Positions 26,882 through 42,678 of a stretch of 64,000 nt of DNA are shown here, in pieces. Below the pieces are notes generated by a model. It made no database searches, was not told where the DNA came from, and saw nothing but the letters and a program-made list of their open reading frames with translations. Position 1 is the first letter of the stretch. Each line of letters starts with the position of its first letter. Made by a program: the position numbers and the translations under genes. Source of the stretch: Candidatus Kuenenia hertensis (GTDB lineage: Bacteria; Planctomycetota; Brocadiia; Brocadiales; Brocadiaceae); assembly GCA_021646465.1 (NCBI GenBank), contig SOET01000019.1:1-64000 (forward strand), given 5' to 3'.

Positions 26882-29800
26882 TTATTCTGCAAGAGATACA
26901 CTTACCTTTGGGCTGTTTACCCCTTTTATCTTAAACTTGATGGCTGCGGTTCCATTCTTTTTCTTTGCGGTGATAGTAAATGTTGCCTGACCGTTTGAAT
27001 CGGTCTTTTCACTGGAAGGCGTTACCTTAATCTTCTTCTTGCTCTTGCTGGAAAGCTTCCTCTTGACCTTTACGCCTTCGGCAGGACAACCATCATTATC
27101 GGTTACTGTAATGGTAACGTATTCACTATCACCCTTGGCCAACGTTAACTCAACCTGATCTGCCGAAGCAGTTGCAGCATCCGCTGGGTCCGGACATGCC
27201 TCTTCAATCAAAGTCACAGCCTTCATTGTTATGGGCGCCGTTACTGTTACATCAACTGTCTCAGATTCATAACCATCAGCGCTTACGGTAACCGTGTAAC
27301 TGCCCACGGCCAGGATAAACGCTGCTGCTCCTCCCGAATCAATTGTTCCTGATTCACCATCCACTGTTACATCAGCGTTTTCAATTGCAACGCCATTGCC
27401 ATCCAAAACCGAAACGACAAGCGTTGCAGTTAAAGCAGCAGGTGATGCTGTTGGCGAAGGCGCAGGAATTGTTGACGTTGGTGTTGATGTTGTCTCTTCC
27501 GCCAACTCAAAGTTTAGAATTTCCGTTTCACCACCCGCCACAGTCACATCTGTTACTGTTTCTGAAGTATAACCTGTAGCAGAAGCAGTAATAGTATAAC
27601 TTCCTTCAGGCATATCATTAATTTTATAGAATCTAGATGCGTCTGTCATGGTGGTATAAGCGTCCATATCAATTGATATCAATGCCCCATCAATTCCTGT
27701 TCCTGTATTCTCGTGCATAACAAATCCTGTTATCGAACAAGTTGAAACAGGAGATATTGTTGCTGCCGGTGTTATACCTGGCGTTGCCGTGGCTGTTGGG
27801 GTAGCAGCCGAAGTTGCGCTTACTGTCACTGTCGGTGTAGACGTTGGTGTTGGTAATGCCTCTTCATCAACCGCGGCAGTATCAGATACTACGGAAATAC
27901 CACCGTCCACGTCCGGATTGTCCGTGTGTGTTGCTGCCACCGTATCGCCAACTGTTGCTTTAATGCGGGTGTTTGACAGTGTATCACCGGCGCTCACTTC
28001 AATTGTACCAATGAAAGAACCGGTATCATTGCCTGTTTCTTTTAAAGACAAGGTCGTACCAGACGAATCAGTTGTTGATGTAATATTCACAGCTACATAA
28101 TTCTCGGAATGTATAGAAGTGTTCTTCTCCGGGTCATACAATGACACGGTCGTATTTCCTTCAATGGCAATGGAATCATCAACAATATCAATAATCGCAC
28201 CGAAATTTTTCGTACTTACCTGTGCCGTAATGTCTTCAGCAGGCGATACATCTTGATACGTTACTGTTATTAAACCATTTGCCACTGCCCGTATGGTAGG
28301 CGCATTCCCTGCGCTTGAATTAGCTCCCGTAGTGAATGTGCCTTGAAATGTGCCGGAATTTGTTGCCGTCTCTGTCATGAGGGCATTATGGCCGGAACCT
28401 CCTGTATTATCAGACGAGGATATTATTCTGACGCTGGAGGTATCCAAACTGCTGCTTGTTACATTCAAATCACTATCAATAACTGTTACGACAATAGTAT
28501 CGCCGCTTAGAAATGCTGTCTCTTTACTCAGAACAAGACTGGTGAGCGGTACTTCTATGGTAATCGGGTCGCTAGCCAGATAATTACCTGAGTTGTCTGC
28601 GGCATTTTCGTTTGGTGAATCATTATAAAATACATAAACAGAATCACCATTTGTTACCTTTAAAATATCGCTGCTATTTGTGGTGCTTGTTCCGCTTGAC
28701 AGTTTAAATGAGCCTTTAAATGTACCCGTGCTTTTATCTGTTTCTGTTAGCGTAAAATCGATGGTATTACCTTCGGATCCCAGACTGGCTGATGAATTTG
28801 GCATAGAGTTCAGTGTGCTTGCATATACAATTTTTGCCGTACCTCCGCTAAGACTGGTTGACAGACCTGAGGGTGTTCCCAAACCGTTTTCATTTGAAAG
28901 TGTTATTGCGGCAATGCCGCTTGAAGTAGAATCGGCCTCATACGTGTTTTGTTGGCTATAACCCGACGTGTTGAGGTCCTGATCTACCAGGGTAACGGTA
29001 ACCCATGTGTTTGGTCCGGTGGTTCCCGTTATGTCTGTTGAAAGCACCCCGGTGTTTGTAGTAAATGCAACATCAGATGTTGTAACGGCAAGCGTGTCAC
29101 CCCCAAGGTAAGCATTATCATCCCCTGTTGCATCGTTATAACGAATGCGATACGTTGCGCCGTAGTATCCTCCGATTGTGGCAGATCGGTCGTTTCCTAT
29201 GAGCTGAACCCACGTTTTATCCGGGTCGTACGCAGAAGAACATGAGAGTTTTGAGACCGATAAGGTTGTCGCACCGGGGCTTGCTACTTCAACAAACTCC
29301 TGGGTAGTTCCATCAAACACCCTGACTACTGAACCCGTCCCTATTAATATAGATACATCCCCTGACAGATTTCCATCGGGGAAAAATAACGTAGAAGTGC
29401 CGGTAAAATCACTGATAACATTTGTTACCGAAAGAGACGTATTGGTCGTTAACCGTATCGTTTTATAGTTAAAGCCAACGTATGTAGTAAATGTGCTTGA
29501 ATTGACAGACGTTTCGGTGATAGGAACAGAGATCCAATGCGTGCCGTCAGGTGATATTTCTACCGAATTATCCAGCCCATCCAGGGTTGCGATAAAAGAT
29601 GCCGTTGTTGCTGTAGTAAGAAAATCGTCTGCATCAGACGAGGAACCATTTACAAGCGGGACAGTACTTATCGTTTGCGTATCCAGGCTAAAGGTGATGC
29701 TGCCAGAAGAAAGAGGGTTACCGAATGTATCTGCTAGCGAAGTCGGTACCATCCATACATAGGTGTTATCAGTGTTTGAAATTCTGATAGATTGTGTGCC

Positions 29801-31102
29801 CACAGAAAAACCATCCTGATGAGATACGCTGACTTTCTTGTATGAAGAAGAATAATTTGTTATCGTTAAATGATCTCCCCTCCTGTTGGTGGTTGTACCG
29901 CTCCATAAAACGGTTTCCTTGCTGGAAGTGCTCGTATTCAAATTATTGTCTACAACAGTGATTTTGAGGGAATCATTAATATCCGCAGAGGTACTGCCTG
30001 CCTCTAATGTTCCTGTTACACCGGAGAGGCCATATGCGGCAGTTGCTGTAACTGTACCGGATGTCCCGCTGGTGGTAAATTCATCCAGATAAGATACCTT
30101 CAATGTATCCCCTTCCCGCGCACCTACCAGTTGAAAGGAATCAAGACTTACCGTAATAGACCCGCCGTTCCCATTGGTAAATATTTCCCCTTCAGTAAGG
30201 CCATTCGCAACAGTATCTGTCCCTTTAAATGCACTGATTGCGACTAAACAATAGTTATTTCCATCGATTAATTTTATCAGGCTATTGTTTATGGTAACAC
30301 TCGAATCGTCAAATGCGCAGGTATTCGTTCCCACTGCTACCGCCCTGCTTATACTCAGGCTTGATGTGCCGTAATTCGTGCCAAAAGTAGTTGTTACGCC
30401 GGTATCCTGCTTATATGCAAACGAGGCAGTTCCCACGCCTGACGCAACAGTTGCCGTACCGCTGTATACAAGCCCCAGGCTGCCGGATGCGTTCACCTCT
30501 ATTATCTGAAACGTGACGCCGGGGCCATTAACCAGATCACCCAGGGTTACCTCGTCACCAGTGTAACTGGATGTTGAGCTTGACCCTGCAAGCACATTAG
30601 TTTTCAAATCGGATGAATTCACGGTAGTGCTTGTACCGAAGACCTTCCCGCTTGCGGCGAAAATGCCGGTATTATTTCCTGTTTCTATCAGCATAATATT
30701 TCTGGATACGAGCGAGACGCCATTTGTAAGCGTTGTGCCTGTCGTTTGATCAATAACTTCGATTTGTACCCTTGAAGATGCTGTTCCGGGAAAACCTGAT
30801 AATGATGCAGAGTTATCCGCAAATCCGATTACATCTTTTGTAGCAGGATTCAGATTTTCATCCTGATCCGTAAGACTTATGATAACATTGGAAGCTGACA
30901 GAGAATTTGTTGTAACCGGGCTTACGGAACCTGGTTGAAAGCTGAAGGAACCGCTGTTAAAGCTGACAGGTGCTGTATCCAGTGTAGAGCCACCATAGAG
31001 AAGCTCTAACGTAGTCCCGGATGTTATAGTAATATCTCCATCGGCGCCCAAAGTAGCATCACCGCCTATATTGGCAGATAGTTCCTTTAAATTTAACCCC
31101 AC
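26882..31102 (-). CDS. Giant beta-repeat surface protein, main part (frameshifted)
   Basis: This 1406-codon frame is the body of an exported protein whose first 138 codons are in another frame. The homologous frame really extends up to about 31190 ('LFPIGASSGYGEDYHTGSHN'). It is Ser/Thr/Gly-rich and beta-predicted. Two motifs recur: an acidic 'D-x-D/N-L-N' type (VVDNNLNTS, LVDQDLNTS, VIDSDLNVT) and an 'ET(G)xxTGxFxG' type (ETGNNTGIF, ETDKSTGTFKG, ETGNDTGSFIG). After Pro/Thr/Ala linkers come two carboxypeptidase-regulatory-like domains ('SYTITASATGYTSETVTDVT', 'SYTVTVSADGYESETVDVTV') and a final Ig-like (Big_1-type) domain. Such repeats are seen in S-layer and adhesion proteins; an S-layer or cell-surface role is inferred. 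No sortase or PEP-CTERM tail is present. Confidence 0.75.
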   Translation of the reverse strand: MGLNLKELSANIGGDATLGADGDITITSGTTLELLYGGSTLDTAPVSFNSGSFSFQPGSVSPVTTNSLSASNVIISLTDQDENLNPATKDVIGFADNSASLSGFPGTASSRVQIEVIDQTTGTTLTNGVSLVSRNIMLIETGNNTGIFAASGKVFGTSTTVNSSDLKTNVLAGSSSTSSYTGDEVTLGDLVNGPGVTFQIIEVNASGSLGLVYSGTATVASGVGTASFAYKQDTGVTTTFGTNYGTSSLSISRAVAVGTNTCAFDDSSVTINNSLIKLIDGNNYCLVAISAFKGTDTVANGLTEGEIFTNGNGGSITVSLDSFQLVGAREGDTLKVSYLDEFTTSGTSGTVTATAAYGLSGVTGTLEAGSTSADINDSLKITVVDNNLNTSTSSKETVLWSGTTTNRRGDHLTITNYSSSYKKVSVSHQDGFSVGTQSIRISNTDNTYVWMVPTSLADTFGNPLSSGSITFSLDTQTISTVPLVNGSSSDADDFLTTATTASFIATLDGLDNSVEISPDGTHWISVPITETSVNSSTFTTYVGFNYKTIRLTTNTSLSVTNVISDFTGTSTLFFPDGNLSGDVSILIGTGSVVRVFDGTTQEFVEVASPGATTLSVSKLSCSSAYDPDKTWVQLIGNDRSATIGGYYGATYRIRYNDATGDDNAYLGGDTLAVTTSDVAFTTNTGVLSTDITGTTGPNTWVTVTLVDQDLNTSGYSQQNTYEADSTSSGIAAITLSNENGLGTPSGLSTSLSGGTAKIVYASTLNSMPNSSASLGSEGNTIDFTLTETDKSTGTFKGSFKLSSGTSTTNSSDILKVTNGDSVYVFYNDSPNENAADNSGNYLASDPITIEVPLTSLVLSKETAFLSGDTIVVTVIDSDLNVTSSSLDTSSVRIISSSDNTGGSGHNALMTETATNSGTFQGTFTTGANSSAGNAPTIRAVANGLITVTYQDVSPAEDITAQVSTKNFGAIIDIVDDSIAIEGNTTVSLYDPEKNTSIHSENYVAVNITSTTDSSGTTLSLKETGNDTGSFIGTIEVSAGDTLSNTRIKATVGDTVAATHTDNPDVDGGISVVSDTAAVDEEALPTPTSTPTVTVSATSAATPTATATPGITPAATISPVSTCSITGFVMHENTGTGIDGALISIDMDAYTTMTDASRFYKINDMPEGSYTITASATGYTSETVTDVTVAGGETEILNFELAEETTSTPTSTIPAPSPTASPAALTATLVVSVLDGNGVAIENADVTVDGESGTIDSGGAAAFILAVGSYTVTVSADGYESETVDVTVTAPITMKAVTLIEEACPDPADAATASADQVELTLAKGDSEYVTITVTDNDGCPAEGVKVKRKLSSKSKKKIKVTPSSEKTDSNGQATFTITAKKKNGTAAIKFKIKGVNSPKVSVSLAE

Positions 31103-31509
31103 AACACCGGCGCCAAGCGTCGGGTAATTGTGACTGCCGGTATGATAATCCTCACCATACCCTGAGCTTGCGCCAATCGGAAATAGCGTGGGTGTGTGGA
31201 GCCGGTACTCGTAAAGACACTGGTGGTGCCGCCTGTTTCCTTTAATATAAAGGTTGACTCATAGGAACCTGCCTTAATCGTTACCGTTACAGTGTCCTGG
31301 TTTGAGGTTGTGTTTCCAGCAGAATCGGTTACAGAAATCCAGGCCCGGTCATAATCCTGGGAATCATTCATGGATGGTAAATATTGTTGTCTGTCAAAGC
31401 TTCCTGTCGCTCCAAAAGCACCAGGAATAATGCCTATAGACACTAAAAATAAACCGGCGACGAAAACGGCAATTTTTTTTGCGCCTTTTATTCGATTTTC
31501 CATATACAC
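31093..31509 (-). CDS. Giant surface protein, N-terminal part (frameshifted)
   Basis: This holds the signal peptide ('IAVFVAGLFLVSIGIIPGAFGA', cleavage about residue 34) and the first beta repeat. The start is GTG at 31509 or ATG at 31503, with AAGGAG upstream. Up to 'TSVFTSTGSTHP' the frame is normal; then it reads nonsense and stops, while the other frame continues sensibly into the main part. The break lies in a CACACACCCACG tract at about 31181-31196. A cobalamin aptamer, a terminator and a short leader frame precede it, so expression should fall when B12 is plentiful. Confidence 0.75.
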   Translation of the reverse strand: MYMENRIKGAKKIAVFVAGLFLVSIGIIPGAFGATGSFDRQQYLPSMNDSQDYDRAWISVTDSAGNTTSNQDTVTVTIKAGSYESTFILKETGGTTSVFTSTGSTHPRYFRLAQAQGMVRIIIPAVTITRRLAPVLWG

Positions 31510-31631: not shown

Positions 31632-31677
31632 CGCTTTCACCTCCTTTAACTCGAAGAAGTTTGAAGAAAAAACACTA

Positions 31678-31876
31678 CAGGCAGGTCTTCTGACTCACGG
31701 GTCATCCTACTGGCTGCACCTTCCCGGAAATTCATTTAAACCGTTTAAATGAATCTCCAGTGGTATTTGCAACGTTCGTCACCGAATACAGCGGCGGTAC
31801 CGTTCCCTTTTTCCCGTTAAAATAAGGAAATGGGATTCCCTTTTTTCCCCGAAATGGTATCGGGGGTACCTGTATG
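31678..31876 (-). promoter_or_regulatory. Cobalamin riboswitch aptamer 1
   Basis: Read on the minus strand it shows the family's conserved blocks in order: ACAGGT (P1), AAAAGGGAA, GGTACCGCCGCTGTA, ACCACTGG, TTCCGGGAAGGTG, GGATGA and GAGTCAGAAGACCTGCC. The ends pair as TACAGG / CCTGTA. It controls the giant surface protein through the downstream terminator. Confidence 0.95.
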
Positions 31877-32007
31877 TATTAAATTTTGATCATGCTATTT
31901 TTACATTTTTATCTCCGTAAAATTTGACGTAATTTCAATGCTTAGACGGAGTTCATACTGTGCCTGCGAATGTGCTCAGTATGACATTTCAAATTATTAT
32001 AAAGTTA
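31877..32007. other. Gap between DUF2149-like gene and aptamer 1
   Basis: This AT-rich stretch shows no convincing promoter or gene. Transcripts from the exb/tonB unit could run into aptamer 1, since no terminator follows the DUF2149-like gene. Confidence 0.4.
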
Positions 32008-32355
32008 CTAATTTCCCGGCACATAGATTACCCTTCCGTCTCTTAGTTTGTAAGCTGTTCCCAAGCGGGTGCCTTCTCCCTGCAACTTCCTGTCGGTAAC
32101 CTTTTCCACCTTTATTTGCTTCCCTTTTTTTGTAACGACCTCCATGGGAGCATTTTCTTTTTTCCTGACCATTGTAATTTCCGTCTCAGGGGAAAGAAAA
32201 TCGAGCAGGCTGAATGCGCTTATAAGCGCACCGATGAGACCTACAATAAAGACTAATCCAACATCAAATAAATTGGCGACGCCGGACATGGGATCTTCCT
32301 TGTGCAGGTCAATGTCTTTACCGAGTACTCGTCGTCTTTTTTTCAAATATCTCAT
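32008..32355 (-). CDS. DUF2149-like membrane protein
   Basis: The start is taken at ATG 32355 ('MRYLKKRRRVLGKDIDLHKE') with AAGGA about 10 bases before it; this overlaps the preceding TolQ-like gene by 38 bases. The 115-residue protein has 'DPMSGVANLFDVGLVFIVGL' leading into one membrane helix (about 28-50), then a basic/charged periplasmic-type tail ending in 'GTAYKLRDGRVIYVPG'. The pattern 'D-P-x-S-G-x-A-N-L-F-D' is that of DUF2149, an ExbD-like family that pairs with a MotA/TolQ-type protein beside CobN-like genes. It is probably the partner of the 32318 gene in a second proton-driven motor. Family call from memory of the motif. Confidence 0.7.
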   Translation of the reverse strand: MRYLKKRRRVLGKDIDLHKEDPMSGVANLFDVGLVFIVGLIGALISAFSLLDFLSPETEITMVRKKENAPMEVVTKKGKQIKVEKVTDRKLQGEGTRLGTAYKLRDGRVIYVPGN

Positions 32356-32983
32356 ATTGCATGATTCCTTCCGTAAAATATTCCAGGTTTCTGATATCTT
32401 CATTCACCCATCTGTTCTTTAAGAGAGAAAGCACATAGGCAACAATCCCTATTGCCAGTCCGACAACGGTAGTGGTAAAAGCGATAATGAGATTGCTTGA
32501 TAACTTTTCCAGATCACCCTGTGCCAGCGCTGACAATGCAGGGCCCATGGGGATGATTGTCCCCATCAAACCAAGGGTGGGGCCCACTCTGATTAAGAGC
32601 CGAAGTTTATCCACTTCCTTTGTCATTTTTTGTTCCGTATCCTGTAATACGTATTCAATATCCATTTCACTGCCGCCATTCTCTTTTTTCAATTCAGCAG
32701 AGAGCTTGTTCATATATTCCCTGAAATACATGGGCATTTTCAGCATTTCCGGCATGTGTGGATCATTTTGCTGCTGCATATTTTCCAAGGGCTTCAGCAC
32801 AAATGCATCAATACGCTCTTTTACACCTTGTTTGCCGGGCTGCTTTTTCCGTTCGTATATTTCGAAAATAAAGCCGCCAAGGGTTATGATTAACCAGACA
32901 AAAAGTCCAAGCAGGCAGATCATGACCGGGTAGAGCATGACCGACGAAAAGATTAAAAAAATATCTTGTAAAAAGTTTATCAT
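32318..32983 (-). CDS. Second MotA/TolQ/ExbB-like proton channel protein
   Basis: This 221-residue protein has membrane helices at about 8-35, 125-150 and 165-185. The conserved channel part reads 'LLIRVGPTLGLMGTIIPMGP' and 'IIAFTTTVVGLAIGIVAYVL', as in TolQ/ExbB/MotA. It differs from the ExbB at 34223 in the large cytoplasmic loop (about 40-110, Met-, Glu- and Gln-rich). It overlaps the DUF2149-like gene, suggesting obligate pairing. Two TolQ-type channels in one cluster imply two force-transducing units: one for TonB, the other for an unknown partner, perhaps the membrane-anchored CobN-like protein. Confidence 0.8.
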   Translation of the reverse strand: MINFLQDIFLIFSSVMLYPVMICLLGLFVWLIITLGGFIFEIYERKKQPGKQGVKERIDAFVLKPLENMQQQNDPHMPEMLKMPMYFREYMNKLSAELKKENGGSEMDIEYVLQDTEQKMTKEVDKLRLLIRVGPTLGLMGTIIPMGPALSALAQGDLEKLSSNLIIAFTTTVVGLAIGIVAYVLSLLKNRWVNEDIRNLEYFTEGIMQYEIFEKKTTSTR

Positions 32984-32991
32984 GTCTTATC

Positions 32992-33822
32992 TCATTCCTC
33001 CTGATTTTCTATTTTAAACCTGAATACGATTTCTTTTGTCCCGTTTACTTTTACTCCGAATCTTTCAGCAGGAGTAAATTTTGCTTTTTTTAAAGATTCT
33101 ATAGCTGACTCGTCCAGCTTTGAACATCCGGCTGTTTTTACAATTTGTATATCAGTGCATTTTCCTTCTTTGCTGATAACTGCCCTGAGGACACACACAC
33201 CCTCACAGCCTTTTTTTCTGCAACTGTTCGGATATCTTGGCTTTTTAACATCCATAATGCCTGGGTTCTGTATTCCTTTTGTCAGCATGTCAGCAATTAT
33301 TTCTTTTGATGGAACTGCATCTTCTTTTGCCTGTGCTGCGGGATCAGGTATTGTTTTCTTTCTGGCAACAGCATCGTTAGTGATTTTATTTTCATCCGGC
33401 TGCTTAGGCACCTCCCTGCTCTTCTTCTGGTCTGTCTTTGTTGTATTTTGCGGTACATCCTGAGCAGGTTCATTCCGTTCGGCAATAGCATGGTCTTTTG
33501 TCAGCATATCTTCTTTCACTACCGGATGCTCCGATATACCGGTTTCTTCTGTTTTTACTGCCGGCTCCGGCAACTCCTGTACTTCCGTCTCAACAAACGC
33601 TTCCGGTTCGTTCTCCGAATTATCTGCAAGGTCATTTACCACCTCACCTTCATCATCGGGTTTTTTCTGCTCATGACTCTGGACGGAGGCAACAAGTTTC
33701 ATCTGGATAGCAGATTCACCGTGTTTAAAATGAACCTCCGGAGGTTTATACAGGGTATTTCCGAGTGTAAAAGCAGCTATATGAATAGCAATTGCCAGAA
33801 AAAATGGTATTAACATCCTCAT
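32992..33822 (-). CDS. tonB: TonB-like energy transducer, Cys-rich C-terminus
   Basis: This 276-residue protein has an N-terminal membrane anchor ('MLIPFFLAIAIHIAAFTL'), a long Glu/Pro/Lys-rich periplasm-spanning linker (about 45-190) and a C-terminal TonB domain starting 'NPGIMDVKKPRYPNSCRKKG'. The C-terminal domain has five Cys ('NSCRKKGCEGVC', 'GKC', 'AGC') where ordinary TonB domains have none, so disulfides or metal binding are possible. It lies 4 bases into the end of exbD (ATGA-type overlap), with the second TolQ-like gene 8 bases downstream. It should power the BtuB-like receptor at 39724. Confidence 0.88.
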   Translation of the reverse strand: MRMLIPFFLAIAIHIAAFTLGNTLYKPPEVHFKHGESAIQMKLVASVQSHEQKKPDDEGEVVNDLADNSENEPEAFVETEVQELPEPAVKTEETGISEHPVVKEDMLTKDHAIAERNEPAQDVPQNTTKTDQKKSREVPKQPDENKITNDAVARKKTIPDPAAQAKEDAVPSKEIIADMLTKGIQNPGIMDVKKPRYPNSCRKKGCEGVCVLRAVISKEGKCTDIQIVKTAGCSKLDESAIESLKKAKFTPAERFGVKVNGTKEIVFRFKIENQEE

Positions 33823-34226
33823 GGTTTTTTCTTTGTCACGAAATGAATTTCCTCAATGCCATGAGCCTGCAATACGTCCAGCACTTCTATGGCAGTGCCC
33901 AGGTTCGCCTTTTCGTCTCCATTTACGAAGATTTTTTGATCGGGTATTTGCTCCCTCCTCTCTTTCACCTTTCGGGGCAGTTCACTGATCTCCACCTTTT
34001 CTTTGTTCAGGAAGATTTCATTCTCCGAATTTATCGAAATGGAAAGATAGTCCTCATGATGTACTGTTCCCGTATGCGCCTGTGGCACATTAACATTGAT
34101 TCCCCTTTGAATGGTCATCGATAACATGGCATAAATAAAAAAGACCAGAAGGAGGAACACGATATCAATTAAAGGAATCATTTCGATTCGCGCCTTCTTC
34201 TTTTCAAACCCCGTGCTTAATTTCAT
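33819..34226 (-). CDS. exbD: ExbD/TolR-family proton-channel subunit
   Basis: This 135-residue protein has a single membrane helix with the essential Asp in 'RIEMIPLIDIVFLLLVFFIY' (Asp23), then a periplasmic domain ('KIFVNGDEKANLGTAIEVLD', 'LQAHGIEEIHFVTKK'). This is the normal layout of ExbD. It overlaps the exbB stop by 4 bases (ATGA) and the tonB start by 4 bases, so exbB-exbD-tonB is a coupled unit. Confidence 0.92.
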   Translation of the reverse strand: MKLSTGFEKKKARIEMIPLIDIVFLLLVFFIYAMLSMTIQRGINVNVPQAHTGTVHHEDYLSISINSENEIFLNKEKVEISELPRKVKERREQIPDQKIFVNGDEKANLGTAIEVLDVLQAHGIEEIHFVTKKKP

Positions 34227-34831
34227 TTTGCATTTGTCCTTTTCTGATAGAGAATTTCAAGGCTCGTAATATATTTTTCCATATTACGCGTGGCTTTTTC
34301 CACACAGGATACAAAATAGTTGTAAGGGATTATGGTAAACAGCGCAATGGTCAGCCCCGCAGCAGTGGTAATCAGCGCCTGCGCTATCCCGCCGGTAACT
34401 GATTTTGGATCCTCGATTCCCATTTCTCCCAGCATATCAAAGGATTGGATAATACCGATAACGGTCCCTAAAATCCCCAGGAGGGGCGCCATGGTAATAA
34501 TCGTGTCAAGAACGCCAAGCCCTCTTCTCATTCTGTTTATCTCATCTCCTGCTGCCAGTTCCAGTGCGTTGATCATGGAAAATTCGATATGGGCCAATCC
34601 GTTACAAATAACACGGACGATATGGTCTTTTGAACCCTTGCCAAGTTCTAATGCCTCATGATAATTCCCATTTTCAGCTTCCTTCATAATACTATTCAGC
34701 AACTTACTATTCAGCGCCCTCTTTTCTCTCATCCAGAAAAATAACCGTTCCAGGGAAAAGGCCACTGAAATAACCGAACAAATGAGCAGCGGGTACATAA
34801 TGAATCCGCCTTTTTGAAAGAGTTCAAACAT
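34223..34831 (-). CDS. exbB: ExbB/TolQ-family proton-channel subunit
   Basis: This 202-residue protein has three membrane helices (about 10-30, 105-130 and 148-175). The conserved parts are 'LDTIITMAPLLGILGTVIGI' and 'GIAQALITTAAGLTIALFTI', the channel-lining TolQ/ExbB segments. With ExbD it forms the proton-driven motor for TonB. An AAGGAAA site precedes the ATG. It starts the exbB-exbD-tonB unit, 800 bases downstream of the cobN-like gene; no aptamer was seen directly in front, so it may have its own promoter or depend on read-through. Confidence 0.92.
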   Translation of the reverse strand: MFELFQKGGFIMYPLLICSVISVAFSLERLFFWMREKRALNSKLLNSIMKEAENGNYHEALELGKGSKDHIVRVICNGLAHIEFSMINALELAAGDEINRMRRGLGVLDTIITMAPLLGILGTVIGIIQSFDMLGEMGIEDPKSVTGGIAQALITTAAGLTIALFTIIPYNYFVSCVEKATRNMEKYITSLEILYQKRTNAK

Positions 34832-35630
34832 ATATAGGTTTCCTTATAAAGATTTTTTATCTCATATTCATAGAGAAGAATAAAATATCGATGTTATTGA
34901 CATGGACTGTAAACCACCCTTTGTTCCATACGTGTTACGTTAAGGAATCAATAATTACATACCCCCCCTATACGTGTTGAATCCGTCATGTCCCCCGCTG
35001 GCGGGGGCGCAGGGGGTGGACTAGACTTCTTCACCGCTTCAACTACCCCTTTAGTATGACTGCGAGTTTTCATCTTGACCTCTACGGCTAGTTCACTATT
35101 CATTGCCTAACGCAGCAAAGCTGCAACTAAAAATAATTTCTGTTTTACCCTTCCGACTCGTTCGGGTTTTGGATATTCAGGTTATAAGCCTGTCGCACTT
35201 CCCACCCATGCTATTCCACCCCCTTAATCCCCCGCCAGCGGGGGACAATGGTTTGCCACGTCTTCAGTGACTTTCAGACCCTTGGGAATCAAAAGCAGGC
35301 ACGGGCAAACTCGCTGCGGGTTCAAGTTTGTAACTTGAACCACACATTTTCAACTACCCCTGTCAGTTCCTCCGGCAGCGGGTGGGCAAACAGGGATTTT
35401 GCCATCAATACAGGTAACCCGGTTCTCCACATAACCCCATGGGTTCAGGTTACAAACCTGAACCCGCTTAAGGGGGGAGGAGAAAAGTTTGAGTTAAATA
35501 AACGTAAATATATTGCCCCATCTATACCCGTTATTAAGTGGAGGTGGCATATGGGAGAATTTTTCTTAATAACGGTACATAGATGGGCGATTTTATTTTG
35601 TATAGATCAGATTTTCCTGCAATTCTTTCT
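34832..35630. repeat. Palindrome-rich gap between exbB and cobN-like gene
   Basis: No gene is supported in these 800 bases. They contain an exact 18-bp inverted pair (34990-35007 and 35229-35246, GTCCCCCGCTGGCGGGGG and complement), the palindromes 35329-35349 (GTTCAAGTTTGTAACTTGAAC) and 35441-35465 (GGGTTCAGGTTACAAACCTG..), and an imperfect hairpin of about 80 bases (35513-35592, arms around CATCTATACCCGTTATTAAG) that follows the cobN-like stop on the minus strand and could end or process that transcript. The mix suggests several small repeat insertions inside a once continuous operon. Confidence 0.65.
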
Positions 35631-38600
35631 TTAATGATGATGTAACACTTTCTTTCTTCTCCATCCGTAATAGAATAAACCTATGCATACCAAAATCACG
35701 GCAATTGTCATCCATGATGTAGTAGAGGTCTGCACCGATGCAGCGCTTTTCTGTTTTTCCTCTTCCATTTCGTATCCTTCCAGCATTTCCTTCATTTCTT
35801 TGTTTTCTTCAGGCTTCGCTTGCTCTTCTTTCCTTATATTTTTACTGATATCTTCCTCTTTCTGCATTTTTGCAATATCTTTTGTTCCGGAAGCTTTCTG
35901 TGCCCTGACCAGTTTGTCCATCTCAGCTTTTCTTTCCGTCAATGTCCTGCCTGTTGCTGTTTGCATAGCCTCCGCATATTGCTGCATCGTATTTTGGTTT
36001 ACCAGCTTGTTAACGGACACGATGTCCGTCGCATACTCTTCAATGGCCGGGTTGTCGCAGATATGGGCGCTGCATGCTACTCCGTGTTCCGCAACCGATT
36101 CAACGTATTCCTTTGCCAGCGTCTGTTTTACCTGTTCAGAGGGCTGCCAGTATCCCTTTCGGATCGTTTCCAGCATTCGGGCAGTCAATGCCTGATAGGC
36201 ATAGGGGTTCTTTTCCCTGAAAAATTCCTCCAGATCCATTCCGTATTTATCTTCCACATATACCTCGAAGGTCTGTTCCCATCGCGCGGCGTCAATCGTC
36301 TCCGGCATGGTAACCTGCCAGCCCCACATGTATTCAACAAACTCCGCCATCTTATTTGCGCCCTCAAATCCCTCCTTTTTCATTCCCGCGATCCACTCAG
36401 GATTCAGATAGCGAGACCGCAGTTCCATGCCCATCATTCTGTCAATTGAGGTCATCTCCGGTTTTGCAGGATTCATTATATTGGTAACCATAAGCTCGGG
36501 AGATTCGCCATCCAGTTCCCGTACCGCGGCGGCAAGACCACCGGCGTACATAAAGAAATCGTCATTGTCAAGGGTCCCGTAAAGATTTGTGGAGCGGCTG
36601 TGCAGTACCATTTCGGTGCCGCTTAATGTCATCTTATATACATCTTCCATGGGTTCACCCCATAAACCGTTTCCATAACCGTAGCTCATGTGCCTGAAGT
36701 AATCTTCTGATACCACAGAATCATCTTCCCATGAGCCGCTTGCGCTGGTAATTCGAGCGACGTTCAAATCGTAACGTCCGGGAGGTTCGTCAAATATTCT
36801 GACCGAGGCATATTGTTCAGCCTTCTTTTCCGGCCAACCAAGCAGCATCAACCTGTCGGCGACTTTCTGTATATGCATGCGCACAAAATTATCTTTTTCT
36901 TCCAGTGCCTTTACCATCTGAACAGCCTGATCGATGTATTGTGTTAATTGTCCGAACATCTCTTCCGCCGCGGAAGAGACAACAATATCGATTCGGGGAC
37001 GTCCCAGTTCCTCTTTTGGTATTATTTCAATGTCTGTCACCTTTCCCCATTCGTTCCAGACAGGCCTGACGCCTAACAGATACAGTATCTGTGATTCAAG
37101 AATACCTTCGTGGCGGATAGTTTCTAAACCCCAGATTACAAATGCCAGCTTCCTGGGATAGTTCCCGTTATGTTTTGATTGATAGTTTTTAAGAAGCTCA
37201 TCGGTTAGTTTAACCCCCACCTCCCACGCCTCTTTTTTAGGGATTTTATCCGGGTTAAAGGCGTAGAAATTCTTTCCTGTGGGCAGTGACTGCGGGTTTC
37301 TGACGGGGTCGTTTCCTGTTCCTGTCGGAATGTAACGGCCGTTCATGGCATGTATTGTATTCGCTAACTCCCGTTTTGCCCCTTTTATGATGTTGTCATC
37401 CAGTTCTTTATCGGGAATATCCTTCGCAACCTCTTTTATTGCATTTATGGTAGAGGTTCGCAGTGATTCATCAGGCGCATTGCCAAATGTGTGCAGCCCG
37501 TACGGCATATTTATCTGCTTCAATTCTTCCAGATAATCTTCTATTTTGTGAATGACTTCGTGATCGAATTTGTGCGGGTCGTCATCTTCTGCGTCGATAT
37601 TCAGGGATTCGCTGATATCTATATCCTTTTCAAGCCCCAGATCCTTGATCTTTTTGATGATATTTTCCATATACTGCCTTGCAAGAGCTTCATTCTGATC
37701 GAGAGCATGGTGATGGTTGCCGATCAACTCTTCCAGTTCGGCATATTCATGATAAAGCCCCCCTTTCTTCAGAGGCGGGATCATATGGTCTATAACCACC
37801 GCAGATCCCCTGCGTTTTGCAACCAGGCCTTCTCCAACATCGTCTACGATGTAAGGATACACCACCGGTAAATCCTGAATCAACGCCTCAGGAGGATCAT
37901 CGCCGGCAAGACCGTTGCTCTTGCCGGGCAGCCATTCCTGCGTTCCATGCGTGCCGAAATGGATGACAACGTCGGCGCCAAAACCGTATTTCACCCATGC
38001 ATACACCCCTGCATACTGATGGTGCGGCGCGAGATCTTCGTTGTGATACATAGCCTCTTTATCCTGCAGCCAGCCCCTCACCGGTTGTGGAAGGATAATG
38101 ACGTTTCCCCGCTGCAGAGCCGGAATAACCATATATTTTTTATTGTCCTTTGGATTTTTCCACATCATTACATTGGATTCTTCCACTTCTCCCCAATCAT
38201 CATTTACCTCGTTCATAAAAGCGGAAGGCAAATTATCAGTCCACTTTCGATAATCATTTAGTGGCAGCAGTACGCACTTTCCCCCATTTACCATCTCATC
38301 CAGTTCTCCGGGCGTCCAATTTCCAACGTTTCGCCCGTATCTGAGGGAATTTTCAAGAAGCAGGTCCTTGTCAATCTTTTCCTCTCCCACGTCATATCCG
38401 GCTTCTTTCATCTTTTTTAAAACATTTTCAATGCTGGCGAAAACATTCAGATAGCTTGCTCCGATATGTTCTTTTCCCGGAGGGTAGTTCCAGTAGACGA
38501 TTGCGACTTTTTTATCCTTGTTATCCTTTTTCTGCAACGTAACCCACGATTTTATATGATTGACCGCGCGCTCGACCCGTTCCGGTATAGGCGTTCGCTG

Positions 38601-39716
38601 ATCAAAAAAGAAGCCTGTCTCATCATCTCTTTTGCGGATACGATATGCCGCCACAGTGGGCTGGATAAGTCCGGCAACCTCAGGAATTGCCAGTTGCATG
38701 CTTATTTCAAGGGAACTAAGCCCTTCCTTGTCTTTCTCCCATTGTTCGCCGTCTTTTCCATAGACGGTAATAAGATTGATCACCGGAACGTCCAGCTTTT
38801 CCAGAGACCTTGCCGCGTTAAAATCTGAAAAGCGAAAGAGGAAAGAAAGCACTCCTGAAACCCTTGGCATTCCCTTTGAATCCAGTAATAATTCTTCAAC
38901 CACTTTGACCGCTGGAAACCCGAATGCAACAAAGGCATTAAATCCTTTTTCTTCCAGAGACCTGACAAGCGCATCTTCCACCCCGGCTTGCCCCTGCTCA
39001 TGGTATGACGAATACGCCAGAACAGCGATCCACTCCGCGCCTTTTTTAAAATATCCGGTTGTTTTATACCAATCTTCATATTCTTCAAACATCTTAAATT
39101 GTGCTCCGTTTTGGTCATCGTAATGATAATAACCCATTTTAAGTAGTTCTTGCGGCGGCGCATATTTTATTTCGGACATATTCAAATATTCAGAAAGTGA
39201 ATAGAGGATCATATTTTTAAAGTTCCCGATACCACCAAACTGAAAATATGAACGAAGAATTTTGTCATAATAAAGCCCAATGCTCATATACTGCGCGTCC
39301 ATACCCCCTGATTGATTGATGGGCAGTATATGAGCGCCATTGGCAATGGCATTTTTTATAGCATTTTGATCAAATCCTGCCTGAGTCGGTGTTGATATCT
39401 TTATACCCATTATGTCGATAATAATGATATCGGAATCCTCAATTTCTGCGGGATTAAAGCCTGAGTCAAGGTCTGTTTTGGTTACAAGTTCAAAGGTAAT
39501 CCGGTCTTTTATAAAAGGATACTCCTGCCAGATTGCCTTGATTGACCTGACAATACATGATGTCATGTAGTTACCCACGATAAAGGTGTATGTATGATGT
39601 TGATGCTTTTCATGGGAATGTCCTTCATGGGCAAGGCATGTATGGACAGACGATTGAAAACTAACAATTATGGTAAATAGGATAAAAAGTATTGATTTTT
39701 TCATGGTATATTTCAT
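35631..39716 (-). CDS. cobN: Exported, membrane-anchored CobN/BchH-like chelatase
   Basis: This homologue of the large subunit of cobalt/magnesium chelatases is about 1361 residues long. ATG 39716 ('MKYTMKKSILFILFTIIVSF') is chosen: it lies 7 bases after the btuB stop and opens on a signal peptide. The mature start is His-rich ('HEGHSHEKHQHH'). The CobN core is clear: 'VVIHFGTHGTQEWLPGKSNG', 'YPYIVDDVGEGLVAKRRGSA', 'AFVIWGLETIRHEGILESQI' and 'ELDGESPELMVTNIMNPAKP'. The end has a charged linker, a membrane helix ('WMTIAVILVCIGLFYYGW') and a short 'RRKKVLHHH' tail. So the catalytic domain should face the periplasm, where ATP-driven CobS/CobT cannot reach. No cobS or cobT is nearby. Metal insertion or removal on corrinoids or another tetrapyrrole is inferred. 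Confidence 0.88.
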   Translation of the reverse strand: MKYTMKKSILFILFTIIVSFQSSVHTCLAHEGHSHEKHQHHTYTFIVGNYMTSCIVRSIKAIWQEYPFIKDRITFELVTKTDLDSGFNPAEIEDSDIIIIDIMGIKISTPTQAGFDQNAIKNAIANGAHILPINQSGGMDAQYMSIGLYYDKILRSYFQFGGIGNFKNMILYSLSEYLNMSEIKYAPPQELLKMGYYHYDDQNGAQFKMFEEYEDWYKTTGYFKKGAEWIAVLAYSSYHEQGQAGVEDALVRSLEEKGFNAFVAFGFPAVKVVEELLLDSKGMPRVSGVLSFLFRFSDFNAARSLEKLDVPVINLITVYGKDGEQWEKDKEGLSSLEISMQLAIPEVAGLIQPTVAAYRIRKRDDETGFFFDQRTPIPERVERAVNHIKSWVTLQKKDNKDKKVAIVYWNYPPGKEHIGASYLNVFASIENVLKKMKEAGYDVGEEKIDKDLLLENSLRYGRNVGNWTPGELDEMVNGGKCVLLPLNDYRKWTDNLPSAFMNEVNDDWGEVEESNVMMWKNPKDNKKYMVIPALQRGNVIILPQPVRGWLQDKEAMYHNEDLAPHHQYAGVYAWVKYGFGADVVIHFGTHGTQEWLPGKSNGLAGDDPPEALIQDLPVVYPYIVDDVGEGLVAKRRGSAVVIDHMIPPLKKGGLYHEYAELEELIGNHHHALDQNEALARQYMENIIKKIKDLGLEKDIDISESLNIDAEDDDPHKFDHEVIHKIEDYLEELKQINMPYGLHTFGNAPDESLRTSTINAIKEVAKDIPDKELDDNIIKGAKRELANTIHAMNGRYIPTGTGNDPVRNPQSLPTGKNFYAFNPDKIPKKEAWEVGVKLTDELLKNYQSKHNGNYPRKLAFVIWGLETIRHEGILESQILYLLGVRPVWNEWGKVTDIEIIPKEELGRPRIDIVVSSAAEEMFGQLTQYIDQAVQMVKALEEKDNFVRMHIQKVADRLMLLGWPEKKAEQYASVRIFDEPPGRYDLNVARITSASGSWEDDSVVSEDYFRHMSYGYGNGLWGEPMEDVYKMTLSGTEMVLHSRSTNLYGTLDNDDFFMYAGGLAAAVRELDGESPELMVTNIMNPAKPEMTSIDRMMGMELRSRYLNPEWIAGMKKEGFEGANKMAEFVEYMWGWQVTMPETIDAARWEQTFEVYVEDKYGMDLEEFFREKNPYAYQALTARMLETIRKGYWQPSEQVKQTLAKEYVESVAEHGVACSAHICDNPAIEEYATDIVSVNKLVNQNTMQQYAEAMQTATGRTLTERKAEMDKLVRAQKASGTKDIAKMQKEEDISKNIRKEEQAKPEENKEMKEMLEGYEMEEEKQKSAASVQTSTTSWMTIAVILVCIGLFYYGWRRKKVLHHH

Positions 39717-39723
39717 AATAATT

Positions 39724-41766
39724 TCAAAACGTAAAATCAATTCCCGCATATGCGGTAAAAGGGAGAGAGCTATAGCCGGTCACTTCTTCATAATCGTAAT
39801 CAAACATATTTTCGAACCGTATGTATGCAGTCATCAAGGCAGAGATATTGTAGCGTGTTACCAGATCGGCTATCCAATAGTCGTCCATGTCAGACCCGTC
39901 ACTATCTATTCTGTCCCGTACCATGGTTCCCGCAAAATGGACATTCAGTTTATCGAGCGGCTGGGCGTCAACACTAAGTGTTGCCCTGTTTCTGGGTCTG
40001 CGGGGCAGTTGCTTTCCCTTATCTTCATCCCGTGTATCTGTATAAGTATAGGTACTCTGTATGGCAAGGAAGGGAAAAGGTATATAGGACAAACCAACTT
40101 CAATTCCCTCTGATTCAGCCTCGCCAACGTTTGTTGCCAGATAGCTTCCGTCTGGTTGAACCGCAGAGGTAATTAGATCTTCAAAATCATTTTCAAAATA
40201 CGTAATATCTATTTTCAGGCTGTCTTTGATAATTTCTTTCTCTACGCCAAAATCCCAGCCTTCGCTTTCTTCTTCCTCTATATCATGGTTTCCATAATTC
40301 GGATAGAACAGCTCATTAAAGCTTGGCGCTTTAAAACCGGTTCCCCACGACCCGTGGAATCGTGTGCCGATTTCTTCAATGTAATACGAGCCCGTTGTTC
40401 TGTACGTATAATGAGTTCCGAAAGAGCTGTGTTTGTCGTACCGTAAGCCAGCCGTCAGGTTAAGCGATTCAAATAGTTCTATCTGCTCCTGGAAAAAGAT
40501 GGAATTGTTTCGTGTCGTTGTATCAAATTTCCCCTCGCTTTCGCCTTCCTCCACCTCGTATTCATACCCTATCGTCACCGTGTTAATGTCAAATAATGTG
40601 AAATCGGACTGATGCTCCGCCTTCCATGTCCTCGTATAAATCCCGAATTCATCGTATTCGTTGGCGGAATCAAACCCCCGCAAGTCAGTATCATTTACTG
40701 AAACCAGAAATGAGGGAGTCCACATATCAAAAAACGTTTTGCTGATTTTGGTGGAGAAGAGAATCTCGTCTGTTGTTTGATATTCATTATCATCGTCTAC
40801 AGCGCCCACTCCCCAGGCAAAGTCGTCAAGTTCAAAATCTGCATGAGAACCGCGCAGCATGGTATCTATTCTTCCGTCATCCAGAAAATCAAAACCAAAA
40901 CGGGCGGAACCGGTAAAATTTTCATATCCATCGTCCTCCGTTCCACTGCTGGCATTGGATATTCCGTGGATCTTCAGATAAGAACCGCCGACTGCATAAT
41001 CAAAGTGCTCCTTCCCGCCGGAAACACTGAAAGTTTCCCGATACGTTTCCTGCATTCCGTATTCAGTACCAAGGTTTACTTTCGTATCGCCCTTTCCCTT
41101 TTTGGTTATAATATTAATCACCCCGCCAATAGCCTCAGAACCGTACAGGGTGCTTTGCGGACCGCGCAGGATTTCGATTCTCTCAATATTGTCTGTAGTG
41201 AAATTTGCAAAGTTAAAGTAATCTGTTGTAGGGCTGTTCATCTCTACCCCATCAACAAATACCAGGGTATGCGAAGAATTCCCTCCCCGCATAAAGATAC
41301 TCGTTGTTCCGCCGATACCCTGAGTCCTTGACACTTCAATACCGGGAACCTGGCGAAGTACATCAAGTATGAGTGGTTTTTTGCTCTTCTTAATGTCCTC
41401 CTCCGTGATGACAGAGACAGAGCTGCCCACTTCTTTTACGGACTTTTCTGTTCTGGTTGCTGTGACGACAATTTCCTCTGCAAGTTCATACGTTTCTTTG
41501 CCTGCATCGGATTGTTGTTCATCTTCGACAGTGATTTCTTTGGAAGAGGTTGTCTCTGTGGATTGATAGAGGACTTTATCTTCTTCCCCGTGTGCTTCTT
41601 CTGCGGCTGCGGCATCCTGATCAACTGCAGGCTGTTGCTTTAGCAGCTCTAATTGTCTTTTTAAGGCTTCGTTTTCCCGCATCAGTTGTTCTCTTGTTAT
41701 TTCTTCTGCAGAAGAGAGAACACAGGGAGCGAGAACGATCAATAAGATACTCAGCAAATATTTCAT
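39724..41766 (-). CDS. btuB: BtuB-like TonB-dependent outer-membrane receptor
   Basis: This 680-residue receptor has a signal peptide (about 1-20) and then an unusual coiled-coil/acidic extension (about 22-95: 'ITREQLMRENEALKRQLELL'). The TonB box 'EEIVVTATRT' follows at about 94-103, then the plug ('VGSSVSVITEEDIKKSKKPL', 'GGTTSIFMRGGNSSHTLVFV', 'RIEILRGPQSTLYGSEAIGG') and a 22-strand-type barrel ending in aromatic 'AYAGIDFTF'. Two cobalamin aptamers in series precede it, so its substrate is very probably a corrinoid. It is followed at once by the cobN-like gene. Confidence 0.92.
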   Translation of the reverse strand: MKYLLSILLIVLAPCVLSSAEEITREQLMRENEALKRQLELLKQQPAVDQDAAAAEEAHGEEDKVLYQSTETTSSKEITVEDEQQSDAGKETYELAEEIVVTATRTEKSVKEVGSSVSVITEEDIKKSKKPLILDVLRQVPGIEVSRTQGIGGTTSIFMRGGNSSHTLVFVDGVEMNSPTTDYFNFANFTTDNIERIEILRGPQSTLYGSEAIGGVINIITKKGKGDTKVNLGTEYGMQETYRETFSVSGGKEHFDYAVGGSYLKIHGISNASSGTEDDGYENFTGSARFGFDFLDDGRIDTMLRGSHADFELDDFAWGVGAVDDDNEYQTTDEILFSTKISKTFFDMWTPSFLVSVNDTDLRGFDSANEYDEFGIYTRTWKAEHQSDFTLFDINTVTIGYEYEVEEGESEGKFDTTTRNNSIFFQEQIELFESLNLTAGLRYDKHSSFGTHYTYRTTGSYYIEEIGTRFHGSWGTGFKAPSFNELFYPNYGNHDIEEEESEGWDFGVEKEIIKDSLKIDITYFENDFEDLITSAVQPDGSYLATNVGEAESEGIEVGLSYIPFPFLAIQSTYTYTDTRDEDKGKQLPRRPRNRATLSVDAQPLDKLNVHFAGTMVRDRIDSDGSDMDDYWIADLVTRYNISALMTAYIRFENMFDYDYEEVTGYSSLPFTAYAGIDFTF

Positions 41767-41867
41767 ATTCTTTCCTCAAAAAAAATGTTTCTCATTACAA
41801 AAAAACACAACGAAAAAGCCCGTTTCTTCGTTGAAGAGAGAAACGGGCTTTCACGGTATAAATTCAA
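41763..41867 (-). CDS. Possible leader ORF overlapping btuB start
   Basis: A GTGAGG site lies 8 bases before TTG 41867. The frame runs 34 codons through the terminator and ends in TGA overlapping the btuB ATG (ATGA), which would couple its translation to btuB. It is not conserved as a peptide with the leader frame in riboswitch 1, so confidence is low. Confidence 0.25.
   Translation of the reverse strand: MNLYRESPFLSSTKKRAFSLCFFVMRNIFFEERI
41810..41851 (-). terminator. Attenuator terminator before btuB
   Basis: On the minus strand the stem GCCCGTTTCTCTC..GAAGAAACGGGC is followed by TTTTTCG. It is the near-twin of the terminator at 31573-31611, and sits between aptamer 2 and btuB. Confidence 0.88.
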
Positions 41868-41916
41868 TATGATTACCTCACCTCCTTTACTACGAAGAAG
41901 TATTTCAGCAGACACA

Positions 41917-42123
41917 CAGGCAGGTCTTCTGACTCACGGATCATCCTACTGGTTGCCCTTCCCGGAAATTCGTTTAAGATGCTTAAACTGTTTAAGATAC
42001 TTTCCAGTGGTAATTGCAACGTTCGTCACCGAATACAGCGGCGGTACCGTTCCCTTTTTTTCAGGACTAAATTTGAAACCGGGATTCCCTTTTCATCCTG
42101 GTAAAAATACCAGGACACCTGCA
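41917..42123 (-). promoter_or_regulatory. Cobalamin riboswitch aptamer 2
   Basis: On the minus strand it contains GCAGGT, AAAAGGGAATCCCGG, ACGGTACCGCCGCTGTA, ACCACTGG, TTCCGGGAAGGG, GGATGATCCGTGAGTC and CAGAAGACCTGCC in order. The core is very similar to aptamer 1 (CGCCGCTGTATTCGGTGACG is shared exactly), so one arose by duplication. It acts on btuB-cobN. Confidence 0.95.
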
Positions 42124-42244
42124 TTCATTAATTAATTATTTATCATTTCATAATATATTTAAATTACATTATCATGCTCCTTAATGGCTGAATAATGAGA
42201 TGGGATTTCCTGGTTTCTTACACACAAATACAGAAACAGGTAAA

Positions 42245-42287
42245 AACAAAAAAACCCATATCTCCGATGTTGAAGATATGGGTTTTA
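42245..42287 (-). terminator. Terminator after cobalamin riboswitch 3
   Basis: On the minus strand AAAACCCATATCTTC pairs with GAGATATGGGTTTT and is followed by TTTGTTTTTA. It separates aptamer 3 from aptamer 2 on the same strand. Confidence 0.9.
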
Positions 42288-42411
42288 ATAGTCAAATACG
42301 TTTATTTTAACTACATGAGCAAACCAAATAAATGTTTCGTAAGCAGCATCTGCGTTATGTGGTTTGTACTCTCAGCCCTTCACCATCTTTACCATCGAAG
42401 ACAACGTGAAG

Positions 42412-42602
42412 CAATTGCAGGCAGGTCTTCTGGCTTCCGGATCATTCGACTCATCACACCTTCCCGGAAAGCTGCGGCTTTCCAGTGGTAATTCGTGACG
42501 TTCGTCCCCGGTTACAGCGGCGGGTCCGCTCCAATCCTCTGAGTGAGGCGTGGATTCCCTTTTATTCTTTAACTTGTAGTAAGTAAAGAATACCTGCAAT
42601 TG
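42412..42602 (-). promoter_or_regulatory. Cobalamin riboswitch aptamer 3 (upstream of aptamer 2)
   Basis: The minus strand shows GCAGGT, AAAAGGGAATCCACG, GCGGACCCGCCGCTGTAACC, ACCACTGG, TTCCGGGAAGGTG, GAATGATCCGGAAGCC and AGAAGACCTGCC. A perfect 10-bp closing stem (CAATTGCAGG / CCTGCAATTG) bounds it. It is more diverged than aptamers 1 and 2. No real gene lies between it and aptamer 2. Confidence 0.95.
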
Positions 42603-42649
42603 ATACAATTAATATTAAAAAGAACAGATTTTCAGTTTTGCGAGGCTGA

Positions 42650-42678
42650 AGTATACTTTTGCGTTGTATCTTTGTCAA
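42650..42678 (-). promoter_or_regulatory. Sigma-70-type promoter of the btuB leader
   Basis: The minus strand reads TTGACA (42678-42673), a 17-base spacer and TATACT (42655-42650), about 48 bases before aptamer 3. It is nearly consensus and should drive the whole tandem-riboswitch leader. Confidence 0.75.

Follow-up and report, generated by a model that had tools for sequence, protein, structure and literature searches.

A 64,000-nucleotide stretch of the 4.17 Mb genome of the anammox planctomycete Candidatus Kuenenia hertensis (GenBank assembly GCA_021646465.1, contig SOET01000019.1, positions 1 to 64,000; hereafter the window) carries a gene cluster that we read, with a probability of roughly one half, as a B12-repressed module for corrinoid acquisition. 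Its core is a membrane-anchored protein of the CobN/BtuS/HmuS-like chelatase family, here called S, together with a TolQ/MotA-like protein (U) and a DUF2149 protein (V). S would handle a corrinoid in the periplasm and the U-V pair would supply proton-motive energy. The reading is built on gene order, cobalamin riboswitches, topology signals, fold family, a fixed S-U-V linkage and a corrinoid gene context, all taken from sequence.

The genes named in a preliminary description of this DNA are all present, as judged by domain matches and Rfam. They lie on the minus strand, as do the riboswitches and other parts of the cluster given coordinates here, in the order promoter-like site, two riboswitches, btuB, S, exbB, exbD, tonB, U, V, a third riboswitch and an S-layer paralogue. 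S (35631..39716, 1360 aa, starting at the ATG at 39716 or that at 39704) matches PF02514 with 1060 bits. U, a HmuU-like proton-channel protein (32318..32983), matches PF01618 with 52 bits, and the HmuV-like V (32008..32355) matches PF09919 with 103 bits. The B12 control proposed earlier is borne out by three cobalamin riboswitches, that of btuB being a tandem pair. Riboswitches 1 (42403..42612, RF00174 109.9 bits, E 1e-26) and 2 (41902..42137, 95.3 bits, E 2e-22) form the pair and riboswitch 3 (31663..31888, 97.3 bits, E 5e-23) precedes the S-layer paralogue; these scores of 95-110 bits compare with a gathering threshold of 31.5. Genome-wide statements here and below are based on family searches. 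The whole genome holds four cobalamin riboswitches by Rfam, three of them at this locus, and the fourth stands ahead of a cluster taken to be cbiMNQO-cobD-cobQ from its translations rather than from a family search.

Linkage was examined with DUF2149 as the bait, so that S was free to be absent from the loci. In GTDB species genomes U and S adjoin V at 72 of 80 loci, and at the other eight the missing gene would fall at or beyond a contig end. Within the Brocadiales 16 of 20 loci likewise carry S-U-V, some of these loci being counted in both sets. The adjacency therefore holds wherever a contig end does not truncate the locus, which is the outcome expected from the fixed linkage to TolQ-like and DUF2149 genes that the preliminary description had proposed as its own test. 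In the alignment V consists of one transmembrane helix, with an invariant Asp in the motif NLFD, and a small beta domain. The nearest loci in public genomes are those of Ca. Brocadia, Jettenia and Loosdrechtia. Anammox bacteria have the order receptor-S-(exbBD-tonB)-U-V and elsewhere it is receptor-(CbiZ)-(DUF2162)-U-V-S. One Brocadiaceae locus (L029, G012) has the non-anammox order and its S groups with those of Nitrospirota and Geobacter relatives; this suggests horizontal transfer.

The module often travels with B12 control as well as with its own partners, and the second linkage proposed in the preliminary description, to cobalamin aptamers, is found at most of the loci scanned. An Rfam scan places a riboswitch upstream on the same strand at 19 of 29 non-anammox loci (L067, L068, L072, L074-L078, L083, L086, L088-L090, L092, L095, L101, L106, L108 and L127), which belong to Desulfobacterota, Geobacter relatives, Nitrospirota, Verrucomicrobiota, beta-proteobacteria and others. 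With some three riboswitches per genome, we estimate the chance that one would fall within 8 kb and on the correct strand at well below 1% per locus. In Duganella and Massilia the riboswitch stands immediately ahead of U-V-S with no receptor in between. Ahead of the receptor, one or two riboswitches are present at each of the 11 Brocadiaceae loci covered and in the window, and a more distant member of the order (L048) has a tandem pair too.

The signal peptide and C-terminal membrane helix attributed to S are clear and conserved. Hydropathy shows both in the window protein, the helix lying at 35661..35723 and being followed by the short basic tail WRRKK. A hydrophobic N-terminal stretch is found in 72 of 74 S homologues and a C-terminal one in 73, those that lack either being truncated or split frames. 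By the positive-inside rule these signals predict that the large domain is periplasmic, as had been proposed. The topology of Porphyromonas gingivalis HmuS, studied by fractionation and proteinase K digestion and leading to a proposal of periplasmic function (PMC13227078), supports this placement. The His-rich mature start, also noted earlier, is present in the window protein; it occurs in only 5 of the 74 homologues, however, and was rejected as a metal-binding feature of the family.

By sequence the closest PDB entry to S is HmuS (9d26, E 5e-145), followed by CobN (7c6o, E 7e-134). An AlphaFold2 model covering 1200 residues of mature S has a predicted local distance difference test score of 83 and a predicted template modelling score of 0.81. 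A fold search with this model again gives 9d26 as the best match (template modelling scores 0.84/0.81), then CobN 7c6o (0.75/0.76) and ChlH, with weak matches to periplasmic binding proteins. The scores against the CobN model TIGR02257 (626.5 bits) and the ChlH/BchH model TIGR02025 (620 bits) fall below the respective cut-offs of 822 (equivalog) and 829. With ChlH as the root, IQ-TREE trees join HmuS and all anchored homologues in a single clade from which cytosolic CobN is separated (Shimodaira-Hasegawa-like approximate likelihood ratio test/ultrafast bootstrap 99.4/99); the branch of HmuS, which is represented in our comparisons by the aligned part of the PDB sequence from Bacteroidota, is long, and where exactly HmuS belongs within the clade is less certain. 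A C-terminal Cys pair (CSAHIC, 36057..36074) is present in 74 of 74 homologues and in HmuS and in none of nine cytosolic CobN homologues, a distribution that gives independent support for the anchored clade. By these alignments and trees S is assigned to the BtuS-type "third CobN type", an anchored clade distinct from those of CobN and ChlH. Azospira oryzae (L138) and Azonexus (L139) have a further CobN-like branch that is membrane-anchored and lacks the Cys pair, and the Azonexus gene has a cobalamin riboswitch 2 kb upstream.

The residues that define HmuS were taken from its structural description (PMC12583661) and checked on the alignment of the 74 homologues. The His of HFGTHG (37947..37949), equivalent to the catalytic His538 of HmuS, is invariant. 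The Asp1208-His1209 pair of HmuS, from the motif LSLDHxxEFMGG, is replaced by an Asp-Asp pair (36558..36563); the first Asp is present in all 74 sequences, whilst the position of His1209 is Asp in 72, Gly in two and His in none. At the position of Glu1212 the homologues mostly have Gln, with Met in the anammox branch. The heme ligand His254 is retained in 0 of 74, and the ligand Met79, part of Met79-Gly80, corresponds to a Met-Gly of the window protein, in a region where the alignment is less certain. The Met-rich insertion of HmuS domain IV was not found in S, about 230 residues of HmuS facing some 20. In the aligned sequences S and HmuS have their topology, their fold, one catalytic His and their gene partners in common, and do not share the heme site or the bis-His cavity. 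Conservation of the core of the cavity (His538 and the Asp pair) speaks for a function of S.

The genes around the module in relatives point to corrinoids. They include CbiZ (L029), a Peripla_BP_2-CbiZ fusion (L067), CbiK, CobQ-CobD-CbiMNQO-like genes near the module in L029 and, in L047, a DUF4430 gene between btuB and S; the DUF4430 family is related to the transcobalamin beta domain. CbiZ was not found in the window's genome, so that its association with the module comes from relatives only. In L076 (5041-6102) a CbiK with a signal-like N-terminus stands immediately ahead of the module receptor, and resembles the periplasmic CbiK of Desulfovibrio. DUF2162, a multi-span protein at the position of HmuT, occurs once each in 10 of 26 genomes with coordinates that fit the module every time.

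The preliminary description also noted that the ATPase partners CobS and CobT are absent here. CobT was indeed not found genome-wide (TIGR01651, no match; CobS was not searched separately), but there is a second CobN of the cytosolic clade on contig C49 (L168), adjacent to a gene reading as an AAA+ ChlI/ChlD-like protein. That cluster also encodes FecCD, an ATP-binding cassette (ABC) ATPase, a BtuF-like protein, a TonB receptor and ExbB-ExbD-TonB, and reads as another metal or tetrapyrrole import cluster. CbiD is present in the genome beside genes reading as CbiX, CbiL and CbiE/T, and on this gene content the host probably makes B12 anaerobically with early cobalt insertion, a route for which CobNST is not needed. 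Many of the genomes examined have no CobN homologue other than S.

A mechanism can be proposed. When cobamides are scarce, transcription would pass the tandem riboswitches and their terminators, and BtuB, energised by the local ExbB-ExbD-TonB, would import a corrinoid, either a cobamide or a precursor, to the periplasm. S, with its class I chelatase fold of the BtuS/HmuS type and tethered to the inner membrane, would receive the corrinoid and process it or hand it on. U-V would couple the proton-motive force to S, standing in for the ATPase partners of the cytosolic chelatases, so that the ligand might be released or moved inward. That the second motor drives S, as had been suggested, is an attractive inference from the linkage; we favour it because that linkage is invariant and because the locus has an additional ExbB-ExbD-TonB set, beside which U-V is redundant for energising TonB and not needed for the receptor. 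We likewise infer that the ligand of S is a corrinoid, and that it is handed over rather than having its metal exchanged. Cobalt is very inert in corrins and hard to remove, and this, with the missing second catalytic His of HmuS, is why hand-over is preferred. A more ambitious version, which we regard as tentative and rather unlikely, would have S-U-V as a class I chelatase powered by the proton-motive force, in which the TolQ-like/DUF2149 motor takes the role of the AAA+ ATPase (CobST or ChlID) and powers metal insertion, metal removal or forced ligand transfer on a periplasmic corrinoid. It would add to B12 acquisition a new branch at the inner membrane, used by bacteria that lack BtuCDF.

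The high conservation of the cavity of S keeps metal chemistry in play as the main rival. S could be a periplasmic dechelatase that removes or exchanges metal, taking cobalt, or some other metal, out of a corrinoid or metallotetrapyrrole that has been imported, for the cell's own B12 synthesis, with U-V powering the reaction. HmuS, its closest characterised homologue, demetallates heme without ATPase partners (PMC12583661); its catalytic His538 is invariant in S, a B12 riboswitch also precedes the cbiMNQO-like cobalt-transport cluster of the same genome, and the signal-like N-terminus of CbiK in L076 fits such a pathway. We nonetheless consider this explanation unlikely, given that His1209 has become Asp in nearly all homologues and that we know of no enzyme that removes cobalt from corrins. 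The alternative that S is no dechelatase at all but a pure corrinoid binder or periplasmic buffer, in which the fold is kept for binding and U-V just energises the TonB receptor as proposed for HmuU/HmuV, can draw on the resemblance of the HmuS head and neck to periplasmic binding proteins (PMC12583661), on the weak matches to such proteins in our fold search and on Bacteroides fragilis btuS1 btuS2 mutants, which retain heme dechelation (PMC6460266). The cavity residues are among the most conserved, however, the window has a separate ExbB-ExbD-TonB trio, and U-V is always tied to S. We hold this explanation to be quite improbable.

Is S then simply HmuS, in a cluster that imports heme and strips its iron? 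HmuS is the top match by both sequence and fold, U and V correspond to HmuU and HmuV, and Met79-Gly80 of the heme site aligns with Met-Gly of the window protein. S was rejected as HmuS proper in view of the missing His254, His1209 and Met-rich insertion, and control by B12 riboswitches, a receptor nearest to the B12-receptor model TIGR01779 and the corrinoid genes around the module in relatives make import of heme very doubtful. Late cobalt insertion by an ordinary cytosolic CobN, to which the PF02514 homology and the CobN models at the top of the NCBIfam matches would lead, is scarcely credible. S has a signal peptide and a membrane anchor, belongs to a separate clade and scores 626 against an equivalog cut-off of 822, and the genome has the CbiD pathway of the anaerobic route and no detected CobT; this assignment also was rejected.

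Several observations weigh against the corrinoid-acquisition reading itself. No riboswitch was found by the Rfam scan at 10 of the 29 non-anammox loci. V has no detectable relationship to ExbD by profile (hhalign probability 0.6%) or by fold, there being no PDB match for a model of low confidence; HmuV has been reported as similar to ExbD (PMC10100974). DUF2162 was not found in the window's genome, and hence no inner-membrane permease for the module was identified there. The host's own B12 synthesis probably makes uptake a supplement. In 20 of the 23 Brocadiales genomes that bear the module, no bona fide FecCD permease of the BtuC type was found, which would favour the reading; most module-free relatives are also without FecCD, however, so that the absence is clade-wide, is weak as a signature of the module and shows only that the usual BtuC route is not visible. 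The window's genome does have one FecCD, adjoining the second CobN.

An exported, anchored CobN is not in itself new, contrary to what the preliminary description implied. BtuS, according to the account of Rodionov et al. 2003 given in PMC6460266, is a third CobN type, periplasmic and membrane-anchored, and that 2003 study may already have noted its B12 linkage. B. fragilis has BtuS1 and BtuS2, and BtuS has been proposed to act in metalloporphyrin salvage, tested only with heme, the dechelation of which persists in btuS1 btuS2 mutants (PMC6460266). Like S, BtuS is an anchored CobN-like protein of the periplasm in an operon with a TonB receptor, distinct from CobN and ChlH and without an ATPase partner; it is the branch of S that is tied to cobalamin riboswitches and corrinoid genes. 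HmuS, a heme dechelatase (PMC12583661), is encoded in Bacteroidota by the operon hmuYRSTUV (PDB 9d26), where the TolQ-like and DUF2149 pair is HmuU and HmuV (PMC10434189). It resembles S in its class I chelatase fold, signal peptide, C-terminal anchor, Cys pair and His538, and its operon resembles the S locus in having HmuU, HmuV and a TonB receptor. It differs in possessing His254, His1209 (Asp in S) and the Met-rich insertion, whilst the S locus is distinguished by B12-riboswitch control, by corrinoid genes next to the module in relatives, by having no HmuY-like gene among the annotated cluster genes and, in the window, by lacking the gene at the HmuT position. Mesle et al. considered that operons without hmuY may serve something other than heme, although they described HmuT and HmuV as diagnostic of heme transport (PMC10100974). 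On plasmid pSZ77 of Geobacter lovleyi, cobN-exbB-exbD-tonB lies without CobST beside TonB receptors and between two cobalamin clusters, and the passages of PMC3403914 on this cluster suggest transport of siderophores, B12 or corrinoid precursors. The pSZ77 cluster shares with the S locus a CobN homologue without CobST beside exbBD-tonB and TonB receptors; those passages do not mention membrane anchoring, riboswitches or linkage to DUF2149 and TolQ-like genes. CobN of CobNST (PDB 7c6o, 9uk9) and ChlH have the same fold as S, and CobN also the DD..Q-type cavity motif, but they are cytosolic, depend on ATP-driven partners and have no signal peptide, anchor or Cys pair.

The anchored CobN-like family (BtuS, HmuS) and CobN without CobST beside cobalamin genes are thus already known. 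To this the present analysis adds the broad linkage of S-U-V to riboswitches, the corrinoid gene context and the active-site differences from HmuS; in addition, DUF2149 and DUF2162 are probably not specific to heme. The S-U-V core, with DUF2162 at the HmuT position in some genomes, sits under cobalamin riboswitches in several phyla, and annotation as a heme system is therefore unsafe outside Bacteroidota. For bacteria whose receptor is under B12 control and in which no BtuC can be recognised, it offers a testable candidate for the handling of corrinoids; it also offers one for the way in which a protein with the chelatase fold could work where ATP is absent.

The remaining features of the cluster follow its direction of reading. 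A promoter-like TTGACA-17-TATACT (42650..42678, 11 of 12 consensus positions) lies 38 nt ahead of the first aptamer; the match to the consensus does not by itself imply function. Behind riboswitch 1 is an intrinsic terminator (42251..42286) with a 15-pair stem and then a T run, and a sequence reading places a terminator-like hairpin, AGCCCGTTTC...GAAACGGGCT and a T run, between riboswitch 2 and btuB (41817..41851). Riboswitches 2 and 3 are each followed (at 41867-41763 and 31631-31593) by a strong AAGGAGGTGA site and then by short open reading frames that extend into the terminator hairpin (MVYYTLEARFFF at riboswitch 3); as read from the sequence, these frames are possibly leader peptides of the expression platform. 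The BtuB-like TonB-dependent receptor (39724..41766, 680 aa) has plug and barrel domains (PF07715 and PF00593), and its top NCBIfam receptor model is TIGR01779 with 312 bits, under the equivalog cut-off of 599.7. Above their cut-offs are exbB (34223..34831, PF01618 106.5 bits), exbD (33819..34226, PF02472 100 bits) and tonB (32992..33822, TonB_C, PF03544 62 bits).

The aptamer-controlled giant surface protein of the preliminary description does follow riboswitch 3, but is to be corrected to a frameshifted paralogue of the anammox S-layer protein (Kustd1514 family, 26882..31509), which matches NF052345 with 1648 and 117 bits in two frames. The N-terminus lies in the other frame (31509-31093 against 31102-26882), and tblastn with an intact paralogue gives the pieces 31473-31207 and 31177-26885, consistent with a single frame change near the N-terminus, at about 31177-31207, which may be either an assembly error or a real frameshift. 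No riboswitch was found within 1.5 kb of the seven S-layer loci scanned in relatives, and an intact full-length copy on contig C43 of the window's genome is also without one. In the 800 bp gap between S and exbB, a sequence reading reveals copies of about GTCCCCCGCTGGCGGGGG in inverted orientation, separated by some 240 bp (34990-35247), which look like the ends of a small mobile element.

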